Under the pieces are notes generated by a model. That model did not search any database. It was given only the letters and a program-made list of their open reading frames with translations, and was not told the DNA's origin. This document shows, piece after piece, positions 18,993 to 25,060 of a stretch of DNA of 64,000 nt (within the stretch, counting starts at the first letter, position 1; each line of letters starts with the position of its first letter). This DNA is from an uncultured Campylobacterales bacterium (GTDB lineage Bacteria; Campylobacterota; Campylobacteria; Campylobacterales; Sulfurimonadaceae): the NCBI GenBank assembly GCA_903892995.1, contig CAITKP010000037.1:1-64000 (forward strand). The letters are read 5' to 3'. The translations under genes and the position numbers were made by a program.

Positions 18993-19021
18993 TTGCATAA
19001 AATAATTTAATTCGTTATGAT
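18993..19021 (+). promoter_or_regulatory. Likely sigma-70 promoter for the leucine leader and leuA
   Basis: TTGCAT at 18993-18998 and TATGAT at 19016-19021 are separated by exactly 17 bases. The -10 matches the consensus at five of six positions, the -35 at three. Transcription would start near 19028, about 20 bases before the leader-peptide ATG. Confidence 0.55.
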
Positions 19022-19046
19022 TTCATATCACAAAAAAGGAGAGATC

Positions 19047-19133: not shown

Positions 19134-19174
19134 TTTTTCACACAAACACACTTTTATATTTTCATTTTTAGTTT

Positions 19175-19209
19175 TGCCTTTTAGGGCGTAATGCGTCCGT
19201 ATATAGGCA
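19175..19209 (+). promoter_or_regulatory. Imperfect hairpin between leader peptide and leuA terminator
   Basis: TGCCT (19175-19179) pairs with AGGCA (19205-19209), enclosing a second stem GGGCGT/GCGTCC at 19184-19198 with two G-T pairs. It lies where an attenuation system would place its pause or antiterminator structure. The role is inferred from position only. Confidence 0.35.
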
Positions 19210-19237
19210 TTATTCTATCGCTATTGTTACACTTAAA

Positions 19238-19303: not shown

Positions 19304-21352
19304 ATGCAGACATTTACAAAATATAAACCGTACGAAGCGGTTCAATTGGATAAAAGAGAGTGGGCGGATAAAACTGCTACAGTTTCACCCGTGTGGGTGA
19401 GTACAGATTTGCGAGACGGCAATCAAGCACTTGCAAATCCGATGGGCATCGAGCAAAAAGTAGCCTATTTTAAGGCGCTTGTCGAGTTTGGATTTAAAGA
19501 GATAGAGATCGCTTATCCGAGTGCGTCGCAGACAGAGTTTGACTTTTGCCGAGTTTTGATAGAGAATGATTTGATTCCCAAAGACGTCACCGTAGGGATA
19601 TTGACTCCATCCATCAAACACCACATAATGCGCAGTTTTGAAGCGTTGCAGGGTGCAAAGCGCATCAATATGCACTTGTACAATCCAACCGCTTCCAACC
19701 AGCGTGAAGTGGTGTTTAAACGCACAAAAGAGGAGATCATCGCATTGGCGTTGGAGGGTGTGGCGTGCATCAAAAAAGAGGCCCAAAATTTTGCGGGCAA
19801 GGTGGTTTTTGAGTATTCGCCCGAGAGCTTTTCGCAGACGGAGTTGGAGTATGCGTTGGAAGTTTCAAATGCCGTCATAGAAGCATATACGCCTACATGT
19901 AAGGCTCCGATGATATTGAACTTGCCAAACACCTTAGAAGCGTGTTCGCCAAACATCTACGCAGATCGCATCGAGTGGATGGGTAAGCATATCAAAAATC
20001 GTGAGAGCGTCATCATCAGCGTGCATCCACATAACGACCGTGGATGTGCGGTGGCAAGTGCAGAGTTGGCGGTTTTGGCGGGAGCGCAGAGAGTGGAGGG
20101 AACGATGCTTGGAAATGGCGAGCGAGCCGGAAATGTGGACTTGGTGACATTGGCGTTTAACTACTTTTCACAAGGGATTGATCCATGCTTACATGTAGAG
20201 AAGGTGGATGAGATATTGGCACGCATTACGGCTATCACAGGCTTACATGTAAGCGATCGCCATCCCTATGTGGGTTCGATGATCTACACGGCGTTTTCTG
20301 GTACGCATCAAGATGCCATAAAAAAAGGGATGGAGCATCACATAGACCAGAAAAGTAAGAGTTGGGAAGTACCATATTTGGCGATAGACCCGCAGGATAT
20401 AGGGCGTGAATATAAAGACTCTATACGCATCAATTCTCAGTCGGGAAAAGGAGGCGTGACCTATGTGTTAAAAGAGGTATACGGTATCGAAGTATCTCAA
20501 GATATGCAGGCAAAGCTTGCTGAGGAGGTGAAAAATATCTCCCAACAAAGAGGCGGAGAGATCAGCAGTGATGAGATTTTGGGGATTTATCAGGGGATGA
20601 TGCGACGAAATGTCAACAGTTGGAATGCGAACAACTACAACAAACACGCTGCTTTCGTTTCCGATTTGGCATTGCCGGTCGTTGATTTGCTTGCACCAAA
20701 AGAGGGCGAAGAGATTCTTGATATGGGATGCGGTGAGGGGAAATTGGCAGTAGAGATTCAAAAAAGTGGTGCAAAAGTAACGGGAGTCGATTTGAGCGCT
20801 GAGATGGTAGAGAGCGCAAAAGCAAGAGGGATCGATGCAAGTGTGATGAGTGCAACGGAACTGTCGTTTCAAAACCAATTTGACGCTGTGTTTTCCAATG
20901 CAGTTTTGCACTGGATCAAAGAGCCTAAAAAAGTGATAGAAAATGTCTATAATGCTTTAAAAGCACAGGGAAAATTTATCGCGGAATTCGGCGGAGAAGG
21001 CAATGCAAAAACCCTTGTCGATGCTATGGAAGCGGTGTTTAAAGATCATCCTGAATTTGGAGCATTTGAAAACCCTTGGTATTTTCCAAGCGTAAAAGAG
21101 TACAAAGAGTTGTTGGAATCGCGTGGTTTTAGAGTAGACTACATAGAACTAATCCCGCGACCTACGCCCGTGGATGATGTGACCAACTGGCTTGATCTTT
21201 TTGCAAACGGTGTCACGGCACATTTGAGTGCAGACGAAATCGCGGCTTTTAAAGAGGAAGTGGTCTTACAAGTAAGGGAAAAACTGTACGATGAAAACAG
21301 CGGTTGGCACGTCGATTATATGCGTTTGAGACTTAAAGCACTAAAGGAGTGA
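19304..21352 (+). CDS. leuA: 2-isopropylmalate synthase fused to a SAM methyltransferase
   Basis: Residues 1 to about 430 form a long-type 2-isopropylmalate synthase, first enzyme of leucine synthesis: catalytic DLRDGNQ at 35-41, metal-binding HPHND at 241-245, and the linker ending EISSDEILGIYQ. Where long LeuA proteins continue into the leucine-binding LeuA_dimer domain, this one instead has a class I methyltransferase (about 435-682) with motif I DMGCGEG at 473-479, GVDLSAEM, and the trans-aconitate-methyltransferase-like AVFSNAVLHW. Both parts are complete and in one frame without a stop. Local G+C is high (32 of 60 in 19741-19800), and TTG leucine codons are frequent, unlike neighbouring genes, suggesting transfer. 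An AAGGA site precedes the ATG. Confidence 0.93.
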   Translation: MQTFTKYKPYEAVQLDKREWADKTATVSPVWVSTDLRDGNQALANPMGIEQKVAYFKALVEFGFKEIEIAYPSASQTEFDFCRVLIENDLIPKDVTVGILTPSIKHHIMRSFEALQGAKRINMHLYNPTASNQREVVFKRTKEEIIALALEGVACIKKEAQNFAGKVVFEYSPESFSQTELEYALEVSNAVIEAYTPTCKAPMILNLPNTLEACSPNIYADRIEWMGKHIKNRESVIISVHPHNDRGCAVASAELAVLAGAQRVEGTMLGNGERAGNVDLVTLAFNYFSQGIDPCLHVEKVDEILARITAITGLHVSDRHPYVGSMIYTAFSGTHQDAIKKGMEHHIDQKSKSWEVPYLAIDPQDIGREYKDSIRINSQSGKGGVTYVLKEVYGIEVSQDMQAKLAEEVKNISQQRGGEISSDEILGIYQGMMRRNVNSWNANNYNKHAAFVSDLALPVVDLLAPKEGEEILDMGCGEGKLAVEIQKSGAKVTGVDLSAEMVESAKARGIDASVMSATELSFQNQFDAVFSNAVLHWIKEPKKVIENVYNALKAQGKFIAEFGGEGNAKTLVDAMEAVFKDHPEFGAFENPWYFPSVKEYKELLESRGFRVDYIELIPRPTPVDDVTNWLDLFANGVTAHLSADEIAAFKEEVVLQVREKLYDENSGWHVDYMRLRLKALKE

Positions 21353-21430
21353 GTATGGAAACTCTATTTATCATCGATTTATGTAGCACATGGGTTATAT
21401 TCTATGTTCCAAATCATTTTGGCCGTAATT

Positions 21431-21448
21431 AGCAGTGAATTCACTGCT
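21431..21448. other. Perfect 18-base palindrome downstream of leuA
   Basis: AGCAGTGAATTCACTGCT reads the same on both strands. It lies in the 213-base gap between the convergent leuA and DUF1348 genes but has no T run on either side, so it could be a binding site, a weak bidirectional terminator, or chance. Nothing else was recognised in the gap. Confidence 0.35.
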
Positions 21449-21565
21449 CCACCTAAAGTCAAACACACCATAAAATTACCTACAAATATACTCAAAAAGA
21501 TCTTTGCTAAATATTCATAGATAAAATTATTTGTAAATGTACAATAGTATTAAACTACAGTACTT

Positions 21566-22039
21566 TTACAAGTCCAATTGAACAAGAGATGCATAATCTT
21601 CTGGTCTTATATCCGTATCCCAAATCAGTTTTCGCTCGCTTTCTTCAATTTTCAGATCATTGATGCTTGCAATACGTTTTTGCATATAGCCTTTCTCATT
21701 AAACTCCCAGTTTTCATTGCCGTAACTTCTGAACCATTGGTCATGTTCATCATGCCACTCATAGGCAAATCTTACGGCGATTTTATTATTTGTAAATGCC
21801 CATAACTCTTTACAAAGTCTATAATCAAGCTCTTTTGCAAACTTTGCTTTTAAAAATGAGACTATCTCATCTCTTCCACTTAAAAACATATCTCTGTTTC
21901 TCCACTGGCTATCCGGCGAATACGCCATCGATATTTTTTGTGCATCTTTAAGATTCCAAGCATTCTCAGCCATTCTCACTTTTAGCGTTGCACTTTCAAG
22001 ATCAAAAGGCGGTAACGGTTTTCTTATCTCTTCATTCAT
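21566..22039 (-). CDS. DUF1348/NTF2-like protein
   Basis: The 157 residues match the DUF1348 group of the NTF2-like (SnoaL) fold, with ESATLKVRMAENAWNLKD, SQWRNRDMFLSGRDEIV, LDYRLCKELWAF and FRSYGNENWEFNEKGYM. Members form cone-shaped pockets, but no reaction is agreed. It is a single gene just downstream of tetR with a copy of the same operator in its promoter region, so it is probably controlled by that repressor and may be part of a response to a small toxic molecule. Confidence 0.85.
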   Translation of the reverse strand: MNEEIRKPLPPFDLESATLKVRMAENAWNLKDAQKISMAYSPDSQWRNRDMFLSGRDEIVSFLKAKFAKELDYRLCKELWAFTNNKIAVRFAYEWHDEHDQWFRSYGNENWEFNEKGYMQKRIASINDLKIEESERKLIWDTDIRPEDYASLVQLDL

Positions 22040-22059
22040 TGTATTCTCCTTTTAAAAAC

Positions 22060-22073
22060 CAAACGATTGTTTG
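22060..22073. promoter_or_regulatory. TetR operator, copy 1 (before the DUF1348 gene)
   Basis: CAAACGATTGTTTG is an inverted repeat CAAAC-N4-GTTTG about 20 bases before the DUF1348 start. The identical 14 bases occur before tetR. Confidence 0.75.
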
Positions 22074-22093
22074 AATAAATAAAACAAAAAAAA

Positions 22094-22651
22094 TTACCGA
22101 AACAAGCCGATAATCTTTTCACCTACATGTAAGTAGTCTTTTGAAGTTCTATAAAGGTTCATCATCATGATCGCGCCCTGCGTGAGTGCTACATACTCTT
22201 TTGCCAACCTGTGAGCTTCTTCTTCACTGTATTTACCTCGCAAGATTTTTGCCAAAGCATTTTCCCAAGCACTAAAGTAAGACTTTATCTCCTCTTTGAA
22301 CTCCAAGTTTTCAGCAGATACTTCCAACGCCAAATTTCCAAGCAAACAACCACCCTCACTATGCAAAAAGTAATCATCCGTTTTTTTCACAAAGAGTTTT
22401 ATTTTTTCAACATCTGACAGATCACCTCTATCTGCGATAGCGTAAATATGCTCTGTAAAATAGTGATGAATGTACTTCAAAGACTCCAGACCGATCTCAT
22501 CTTTGCTCTTAAAATGGTGGTAAATACTCCCTTTGATAAGCCCGCAAGCCTCGGCAATATTTGCCATAGAAGTGTTGTAATACCCACGAATCTTAAAAAG
22601 TCTGGTAGCCTCTTTTAAAATCTCTTCACGTGATGTCTTTTTGATTGCCAT
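22094..22651 (-). CDS. TetR-family repressor
   Basis: The N-terminal helix-turn-helix is clear: REEILKEATRLFKIRGYYNTSMANIAEACGLI... followed by GSIYHHFKSKDEI, and the rest is a ligand-binding helical domain of the AcrR/YcdC type. The start at 22651 (MAIKK) is chosen because the 13 codons upstream of it overlap the operator at 22663-22676. A matching operator lies before the DUF1348 gene. It therefore probably represses itself and that gene. The palindrome near 22122 lies near its C-terminus. Confidence 0.92.
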   Translation of the reverse strand: MAIKKTSREEILKEATRLFKIRGYYNTSMANIAEACGLIKGSIYHHFKSKDEIGLESLKYIHHYFTEHIYAIADRGDLSDVEKIKLFVKKTDDYFLHSEGGCLLGNLALEVSAENLEFKEEIKSYFSAWENALAKILRGKYSEEEAHRLAKEYVALTQGAIMMMNLYRTSKDYLHVGEKIIGLFR

Positions 22652-22662
22652 TATTATCCTAC

Positions 22663-22676
22663 CAAACGATTGTTTG
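22663..22676. promoter_or_regulatory. TetR operator, copy 2 (before tetR)
   Basis: CAAACGATTGTTTG, identical to 22060-22073, lies 12 bases before the tetR start. The flanking CC and AT/AA bases also agree. Two identical 14-base inverted repeats beside the two neighbouring genes support autoregulation and joint control. Confidence 0.78.
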
Positions 22677-22723
22677 ATAAATTGTATCAAATCAATTCTT
22701 TATTTGTCAAATTCTCTAAAATA

Positions 22724-24310: not shown

Positions 24311-25060
24311 ATGATAGCTTCAAACTTTTCACTCAAAAATTATCTCAATCGCATAAATTATGCAGGAAAAATTCAGGCTGACTTAAAGACATTAAACGCT
24401 TTAATGAGCCATCAACTCCAAAGCGTTCCTTTTGAAAATACAGAGGTTCAAGCGGGTCGGATTCCCTCTCTAGTTCTTGAAGATATTTATACAAAAATAG
24501 TTACCGATAAACGAGGCGGATACTGCTACGAAGTGAACGGTTTATTTGCTATGGCGCTTTCTGCTATCGGGTTTGAGTGGTATTTTGTAGGTGCTCGTCC
24601 GATGTTTTATCCCTCTCGCCGACCAAAAACACACATGGTTATAGTTGTCATTCTTGATGGAGAAAGCTATCTATGTGACACTGGATTTGGAGGGTATGGT
24701 CTGCGTGAACCTCTTAAAGTCGTTGAAACTCTCGCCGCTGAACAAAACGGCGATCAATTTCGCCTTGCCTTTATAGATGAAGAGTTTGTTCTGAGTTCAC
24801 TTGTCAATGAAGAATGGATGCCGCAATATGGTTTTGCACTTTCACAACAAGAGTGGATAGAGTTTAGTCTGGCGAACTATTTTAATGCAACGCATCCTGA
24901 GACTATCTTCACACAAAAAAAATTAGCTATTATACAAACGCCTACAGGGAGAAAAATACTTGTAGACAATAGTCTCAAAATTATCGATCAAGGGATCACA
25001 ACAGTCAGTGAAGTTGAGTATTTTTCTGCAGCAAAAGAACAGTTTGGATTATTAATATGA
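24311..25060 (+). CDS. Arylamine N-acetyltransferase
   Basis: NAT-family enzyme of 249 residues. The catalytic triad is visible as the Cys of RGGYCYEVN, the His of KTHMVIVV and the Asp of CDTGFGG. It acetylates arylamines or hydrazines from acetyl-CoA, and in some pathways acts on polyketide or amide intermediates. It is a single gene behind AAGGA, following the DsrE-like gene by 68 bases. Such enzymes are uncommon in this bacterial group and fit the accessory nature of the block. Confidence 0.93.
   Translation: MIASNFSLKNYLNRINYAGKIQADLKTLNALMSHQLQSVPFENTEVQAGRIPSLVLEDIYTKIVTDKRGGYCYEVNGLFAMALSAIGFEWYFVGARPMFYPSRRPKTHMVIVVILDGESYLCDTGFGGYGLREPLKVVETLAAEQNGDQFRLAFIDEEFVLSSLVNEEWMPQYGFALSQQEWIEFSLANYFNATHPETIFTQKKLAIIQTPTGRKILVDNSLKIIDQGITTVSEVEYFSAAKEQFGLLI

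Follow-up and report, generated by a model that had tools for sequence, protein, structure and literature searches.

We found that an uncultured Sulfurimonadaceae bacterium carries, in a 64,000-nucleotide stretch of its DNA (the window, taken from a 107-contig assembly), a leuA2 gene fused in frame to a methyltransferase gene and placed behind a leucine-rich leader peptide and a terminator-like hairpin (Table 1). What emerges is a sulfur-oxidising bacterium with a spare, brake-less first enzyme of leucine synthesis, joined to a domain that probably methylates small acids and placed behind an RNA switch that would count leucine, an arrangement that looks starvation-induced.

Table 1. Features of the leuA2-methyltransferase locus (positions in the window; aa, residues of the fusion protein).
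Feature	Position	Strand	Basis
Sigma-70-like promoter: TTGCAT, 17-nt spacer, TATGAT	18993..19021	+	Consensus match
Strong Shine-Dalgarno sequence AAAGGAGA of the leader peptide	19038..19041	+	Kept in all Sulfurimonadaceae leuA2 leaders
Leader peptide ORF MKSHHTHISKTMSGISSANLSLLLLHLL, then stop; 28 codons	19047..19133	+	Preceded by Shine-Dalgarno sequence; conserved
Terminator-like hairpin, then U-rich stretch	19171..19226	+	Pairs 19175-19179/19205-19209 and 19184-19189/19193-19198
leuA2-methyltransferase fusion gene, 682 aa	19304..21352	+	ORF, Pfam, homologues, dN/dS
Catalytic TIM barrel, HMGL-like (aa 30-304), carrying R37-D38 and H241/H243	19391..20215	+	Pfam, alignment
IPMS_D2 post-catalytic domain (subdomain I region, aa 326-390)	20279..20473	+	Pfam
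Subdomain II-like helices, aa 391-434; synthase end, stop point of single-domain LeuA2	20474..20605	+	Alignment, model
Interdomain hinge, aa 435-438; model segment 434-440 of low confidence	20606..20617	+	
3CCF-like class I SAM methyltransferase domain (aa 439-682); intact motif I, LDMGCGEG	20618..21349	+	
Relic of a tauE/safE permease gene, with its start and a 3' portion but without its middle	21355..21506	+	Intact in G002

The initial annotation had described a LeuA joined in frame to a methyltransferase and lacking the leucine-binding domain, and this was borne out. The gene reads as one uninterrupted frame, in whose product Pfam recognised HMGL-like (1.3e-66), IPMS_D2 (3e-32) and Methyltransf_11 (residues 472-559, 7e-23) domains and found no LeuA_dimer (PF08502). 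The isopropylmalate synthase (IPMS) part is complete, as had also been claimed, with both of its Pfam domains and the subdomain II helices kept; work by Zhang and colleagues from 2014 reportedly found subdomain II to be essential for activity. The protein scored 653 bits over residues 4-525 against PRK03739, the 2-isopropylmalate synthase model of the yeast/actinobacterial type (cut-off 455), and 579.9 bits against the leuA_yeast equivalog TIGR00970, below the cut-off of 697.4 that the ordinary long leuA of the same genome exceeded with 735.7 bits. Residues R37, D38, H241, H243, H335 and Y370, the last two located beyond the HMGL-like domain, were invariant in 15 aligned sequences and are the same in M. 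tuberculosis LeuA; we take the RD pair, the HxH motif and the post-catalytic His and Tyr to be catalytic. The five residues that separate IPMS from HphA/homocitrate synthase specificity, Leu, Glu, Ser, Asn and Glu (PMC12961565), appear to map to L100, E170, S172, N206 and E273. Single-domain and fused LeuA2 proteins also share altered motifs close to the active site (HLYNPT, NLPNT and SQT in the alignment), which could alter substrate choice. In an AlphaFold2 model the methyltransferase reached a pLDDT of ~93, the barrel, from a shallow alignment, was of moderate confidence, and the hinge of low; the best solved relatives were M. tuberculosis LeuA for the synthase half and the uncharacterised 3CCF for the methyltransferase half (38% identity, TM 0.88).

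A search for other proteins with these two domains recovered the same order in Sulfurimonadaceae assemblies. The full-length fusion is present in seven independent assemblies, including that of the cultured Sulfuricurvum kujiense, with identities to the window protein of 80% in S. kujiense, 79% in G007, 78% in nzgw179 (Sulfuricurvum), 71% in G017, and 70% in both G033 and G340; the G001 copy is cut by a contig end within the methyltransferase. In S. kujiense DSM 16994 the gene lies on the complete plasmid pSULKU02 (L175, NC_014755.1), annotated plainly as "2-isopropylmalate synthase". Since full-length homologues occur in independent assemblies, a frameshift or assembly joint near position 20600, which the initial annotation had named as something that would refute it, is excluded. 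Purifying selection acts on both halves: dN/dS lies between 0.05 and 0.13 over the LeuA stretch and between 0.08 and 0.37 over the methyltransferase. We accordingly rejected an assembly artefact, pseudogene, frameshift or chance joining, which the division of the assembly into 107 contigs might have favoured and whose probability we regard as negligible given the independent genomes, the plasmid copy and the low dN/dS.

Fusions were found only in Sulfurimonadaceae, in genera g1, g11 and g15 (the last including S. kujiense), and among the best 80 methyltransferase relatives in a search of genome contigs only the two closest were fused. No fusion was found in 398 Pseudomonadota genomes at E < 1e-165, a threshold that divergent fusions would escape in a search run without a positive control, nor was a LeuA-methyltransferase fusion described in the literature searched. 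The gene is richer in G+C than its neighbours, as had been noted (0.456, against 0.371 for the window and 0.35-0.41 for the 12 neighbouring genes measured). Raised G+C, plasmid location and shifting neighbourhoods together suggest a mobile accessory gene.

The absence of the regulatory domain had been expected to free the enzyme from leucine. Leucine control was probably not lost; an RNA attenuator appears to have taken it over from the allosteric domain of the protein. In this attenuator a short ORF preceded by a Shine-Dalgarno sequence and containing a run of leucine codons is followed by a terminator and then by leuA2. In the window the peptide ends in LSLLLLHLL, with leucine at seven of its final nine codons, and promoter-like hexamers occur at the equivalent place in G007, G001 and G002. 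Every Sulfurimonadaceae leuA2 examined, fused or single, has a leucine-rich leader whose sequence varies and whose leucine run is kept. A second family (f20), which we infer to be Sulfurospirillum-like, the genus name included, mostly has leaders ending in LVVVLLLKLR or similar, with valine and leucine runs, and most Arcobacteraceae loci inspected have shorter variants. Leaders with ends as different as LSLLLLHLL, TLLLRLLLSL, SFSLLLLNLL and LVVVLLLKLR retain the leucine run and the Shine-Dalgarno sequence. When one fixed rule was applied, a leucine-rich short ORF with a Shine-Dalgarno sequence stood upstream of 7/8 leuA2 genes, against 2/175 other genes from the same loci.

In the hairpin that follows the leader 94% of cells pair; covariation is slight, so the case for it rests more on conservation and placement, and the U-tract in the window is poor (ATTATTC). 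A covariance model (R1) built from 11 hairpin copies gave strong matches (1e-13 to 1e-16; 1.4e-16 in the window) only before leuA2. Weak R1 matches in or near hisIE and unrelated genes had no leader peptide, and we judged them to be chance. The anatomy is that of an attenuator, from which we infer a response to leucine, and it is very probable that leucine attenuation controls the fusion gene.

The same genome encodes a second, ordinary leuA with a LeuA_dimer domain (G000:C43, 557 residues), the sole LeuA_dimer match in the whole assembly, and no leucine leader was seen upstream of it. The initial annotation had held that an ordinary leuA accompanied by a silent fused gene would count against its reading; the former is present, and as to the latter, purifying selection, the promoter-like site and the leader show that the fused gene is not a dead copy. 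It is an accessory enzyme, and not the housekeeping LeuA.

In a LeuA tree rooted at its midpoint all long LeuA_dimer proteins formed one group (100/100), and the fused proteins fell among the dimer-less leuA2, with the Sulfurospirillum-like single-domain LeuA2 as sister. The sister proteins (~435 aa) are themselves without LeuA_dimer, so the methyltransferase did not take the place of this domain directly, as had been supposed; because the fused proteins nest among dimer-less leuA2, the regulatory domain had most likely gone before the methyltransferase joined. The methyltransferase is dispensable, since it is absent from G002, G003, G345 and several Sulfurospirillum-like genomes that carry leuA2. 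In G002 it was apparently removed by an in-frame internal deletion that left leuA2 and the leader in place, and the synthase now ends in YDESVCLRVKG, resembling the methyltransferase end YDENSGWHVDYMRLRLKA. On the Aliarcobacter cibarius plasmid pACIB (L176:3998-5310, NZ_CP043858.1) leuA2 is split into two annotated ORFs and is probably a pseudogene.

The fused domain had been assigned to the trans-aconitate methyltransferase (Tam) type. Its class I SAM methyltransferase nature stood, on a Pfam match above cut-off, a glycine-rich motif I and the fold of the model; the Tam assignment is loose, the scores against PRK01683 and PRK14103 (54.9 and 67.9 bits) being far below the cut-offs of 297 and 320. 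Tam scored no better than BioC, whose model gave 71 bits, also below cut-off, and structural similarity was alike for BioC and Tam (TM ~0.73) and for JHAMT (0.70). A trans-aconitate-methyltransferase-like action is possible. In the tree the fused clade nests inside a broad stand-alone family of many phyla. The 3CCF-like methyltransferases (L049-L126) are very widespread as stand-alone proteins, including in several other Campylobacterota. In the loci inspected no leucine genes lay beside the stand-alone members and the neighbourhoods held no clue to the substrate; the repeated neighbours in Alphaproteobacteria are housekeeping genes, for instance accC and aroQ, as named from their sequences. 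Since the family is mostly stand-alone and without leucine-gene neighbours in these loci, the compound that it naturally methylates may be something other than an alkylmalate.

In the Sulfurospirillum-like family a 438-residue leuA2 is often directly followed by a methyltransferase gene of 254-267 residues. The product shares 33-36% identity with the fused domain, from which long branches separate it with 100/100 support, and scores 96 bits against PRK01683 over the length of the model; for it, as for the fused domain, the nearest characterised enzymes are BioC, Tam and juvenile hormone acid methyltransferase, with scores below the named-enzyme cut-offs. Since leuA2 of this other family has a methyltransferase of a different subfamily directly 3' of it, there were at least two origins of the pairing.

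Exporter genes follow leuA2 in both lineages (TauE-type or LysE-type), and do not stand beside every copy. In the window two pieces of a tauE gene, at 21355-21393 and 21419-21506, survive immediately 3' of the stop codon of the fusion, and in G002 an intact TauE/SafE permease gene (L039:7339-8145, minus strand) begins a few bases after leuA2. From this relic, and from the G002 deletion with its intact tauE, the ancestral order in the genus of the window was probably leader, leuA2-methyltransferase, tauE. In the Sulfurospirillum-like family the genes run leuA2, methyltransferase, MOSC or OsmC, LysE-type exporter, and some genomes lack one or another of them; leuA2, an optional methyltransferase and LysE were seen in L130-L138, L140, L141, L041, L154 and L155, and most leuA2 loci examined in this second lineage have the exporter.

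Other neighbours vary. A YbaK-like aminoacyl-tRNA editing gene lies directly 3' of the fusion in G340 (L128:3655-4128) and G017 (L036:10701-11174), and an NTF2/SnoaL-like gene directly after it on pSULKU02. Just downstream of the fusion in the window, two genes stand side by side on the opposite strand (21566-22690), one of them DUF1348 (NTF2-like) and the other with the look of a TetR-type regulator. An arylamine N-acetyltransferase-like gene recurs near leuA2 (window 24311-25060; L035:10400-14506; L152:9301-12125), and in two of the genomes it is accompanied by genes that resemble a MocR regulator and an FMN-binding protein, all judged from sequence.

These observations led us to a tentative model, whose chances as a whole we put slightly below even, in which the fusion is a leucine-starvation-inducible accessory enzyme that makes and methylates an alkylmalate. 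With charged leucyl-tRNA in short supply, ribosomes would stall in the leucine-codon run of the leader, the downstream terminator would fail to form and the fusion would be transcribed. Without a leucine-binding domain the synthase half should ignore leucine, and would condense acetyl-CoA and 2-oxoisovalerate to 2-isopropylmalate or a close analogue, a product deduced from the intact catalytic residues and from specificity residues of the IPMS type. With SAM, the carboxyl O-methyltransferase fused to it might then esterify 2-isopropylmalate, its 3-isomer or the dehydration product, and in the related operons the methylated product could leave through the TauE- or LysE-type exporter. Substrate, esterification and export are all deduced in this scheme; under leucine limitation the outcome would be a secreted methyl ester, as signal or overflow product, or the removal of unwanted alkylmalates. 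What speaks most strongly for methylation directed at the synthase product is that two different methyltransferases joined leuA2, with an exporter near each. The earlier suggestion that an acid of the leucine pathway is methylated is plausible, the pairing having arisen a second time, and we regard an alkylmalate-type substrate as rather probable. In yeast both 3-isopropylmalate and isopropylmaleate are esterified by Tmt1 (PMC3197675), and cells starved of amino acids produce 3-isopropylmalate methyl ester and secrete it (PMC4684349, PMC3197675); PMC4684349, citing Dumlao 2008, presents the ester as a signal for invasive growth that forms once the acid has built up in cells short of leucine. 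In a bolder version, bacteria convergently evolved what Tmt1 does in yeast, a dedicated production and export of isopropylmalate methyl ester, as a signal or shared metabolite, switched by leucine starvation; it would have been assembled on two occasions from different methyltransferases and exporters, with feedback moved from protein to RNA leader. This version seems to us unlikely.

Other readings have to be weighed against this model. The deregulated synthase might condense pyruvate or 2-oxobutyrate, yielding norvaline- or norleucine-type analogues or trans-isomers, which the methyltransferase would cap and exporters remove, with a trans-editing protein perhaps cleaning the tRNA. The LysE-type amino acid exporter of the Sulfurospirillum-like operons and the YbaK-like gene directly 3' of the fusion in G017 and G340 favour such a role, as does the view that bacterial Tam counters spontaneously formed trans-aconitate, a function likewise proposed for HvrF of the pantaphos cluster (PMC7858074). 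However, no editing gene lies beside the fusions of G033 and of the window genome (G000), and fusing a clean-up enzyme to the synthase exceeds the needs of overflow control, which leaves this possibility improbable in our judgement. Lower again we place a specialised-metabolite pathway in which LeuA2 takes an unusual 2-oxoacid, as MAM and phosphonomethylmalate synthases do, and the methyltransferase esterifies the product. The changes near the pocket common to all single-domain and fused LeuA2 would fit, as would the mobile accessory distribution with its plasmid location and raised G+C, and the relatives MAM synthase (PMC6635470) and HphA (PMC12961565) serve special pathways; yet a leader that counts leucine, and in the second lineage valine too, binds the unit to branched-chain metabolism, the leuA2 copies inspected have no conserved biosynthetic cluster around them, and the IPMS-type specificity residues appear to be kept.

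The least probable of these readings, in our estimation, makes the fusion a back-up leucine enzyme, free of feedback and switched on when leucine is exhausted, whose methyltransferase is a hitch-hiker acting on an unrelated substrate or a stabiliser of the fold. That G002, G003 and G345 keep synthase and leader without the methyltransferase agrees with it, as does a leader tuned to leucine, and the dimer-less LeuA2 of Leptospira is a second IPMS strongly induced by superoxide (PMC12345160). A mere passenger is harder to reconcile with a methyltransferase that is under purifying selection with its SAM motif intact, and with the independent pairing of leuA2 with a second, different methyltransferase.

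If, as the alkylmalate model has it, the methyltransferase acts on the synthase product, bacteria would have their own equivalent of the starvation signal that yeast makes in the form of 3-isopropylmalate methyl ester. The fusion would also hint at the substrates of the very widespread, uncharacterised 3CCF-like methyltransferase family, and the cultured carrier S. kujiense DSM 16994 opens it to direct testing.

Branched-chain operon attenuators such as leuL consist of a short ORF with leucine codons and a terminator, followed by leuA. The fusion leader has this order in common with them but differs in gene, organism group and sequence, governs a dimer-less fused synthase, and matches no Rfam family in the leader region. 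Like the fusion, Leptospira LeuA2 (NF042434; PDB 4OV4/4OV9) is a second IPMS without the leucine-binding domain, beside an ordinary LeuA1; it belongs to a different LeuA branch (the fusion scored 200.8 bits against NF042434, cut-off 500), has no fused methyltransferase and is superoxide-induced, with no leucine leader reported in the available text of PMC12345160. M. tuberculosis LeuA (PDB 1SR9/3FIG) shares ~45% identity over barrel and linker, and the catalytic residues, and has a leucine-binding regulatory domain at the place that the methyltransferase occupies in the fusion. Plant MAM synthases and tomato IPMS3 are likewise IPMS homologues that have shed the regulatory domain and leucine feedback (PMC6635470), but they are eukaryotic, with neither a methyltransferase domain nor an attenuator. 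In the pantaphos cluster of Pantoea ananatis, HvrC and HvrF also combine a LeuA-like synthase with a trans-aconitate-type methyltransferase, although as separate genes of a phosphonate pathway and with no leucine leader reported in the available text of PMC7858074. Finally, the fused domain belongs to the same class I fold group as Tmt1, Tam, BioC and JHAMT, and differs from them in being joined to the maker of its putative substrate.
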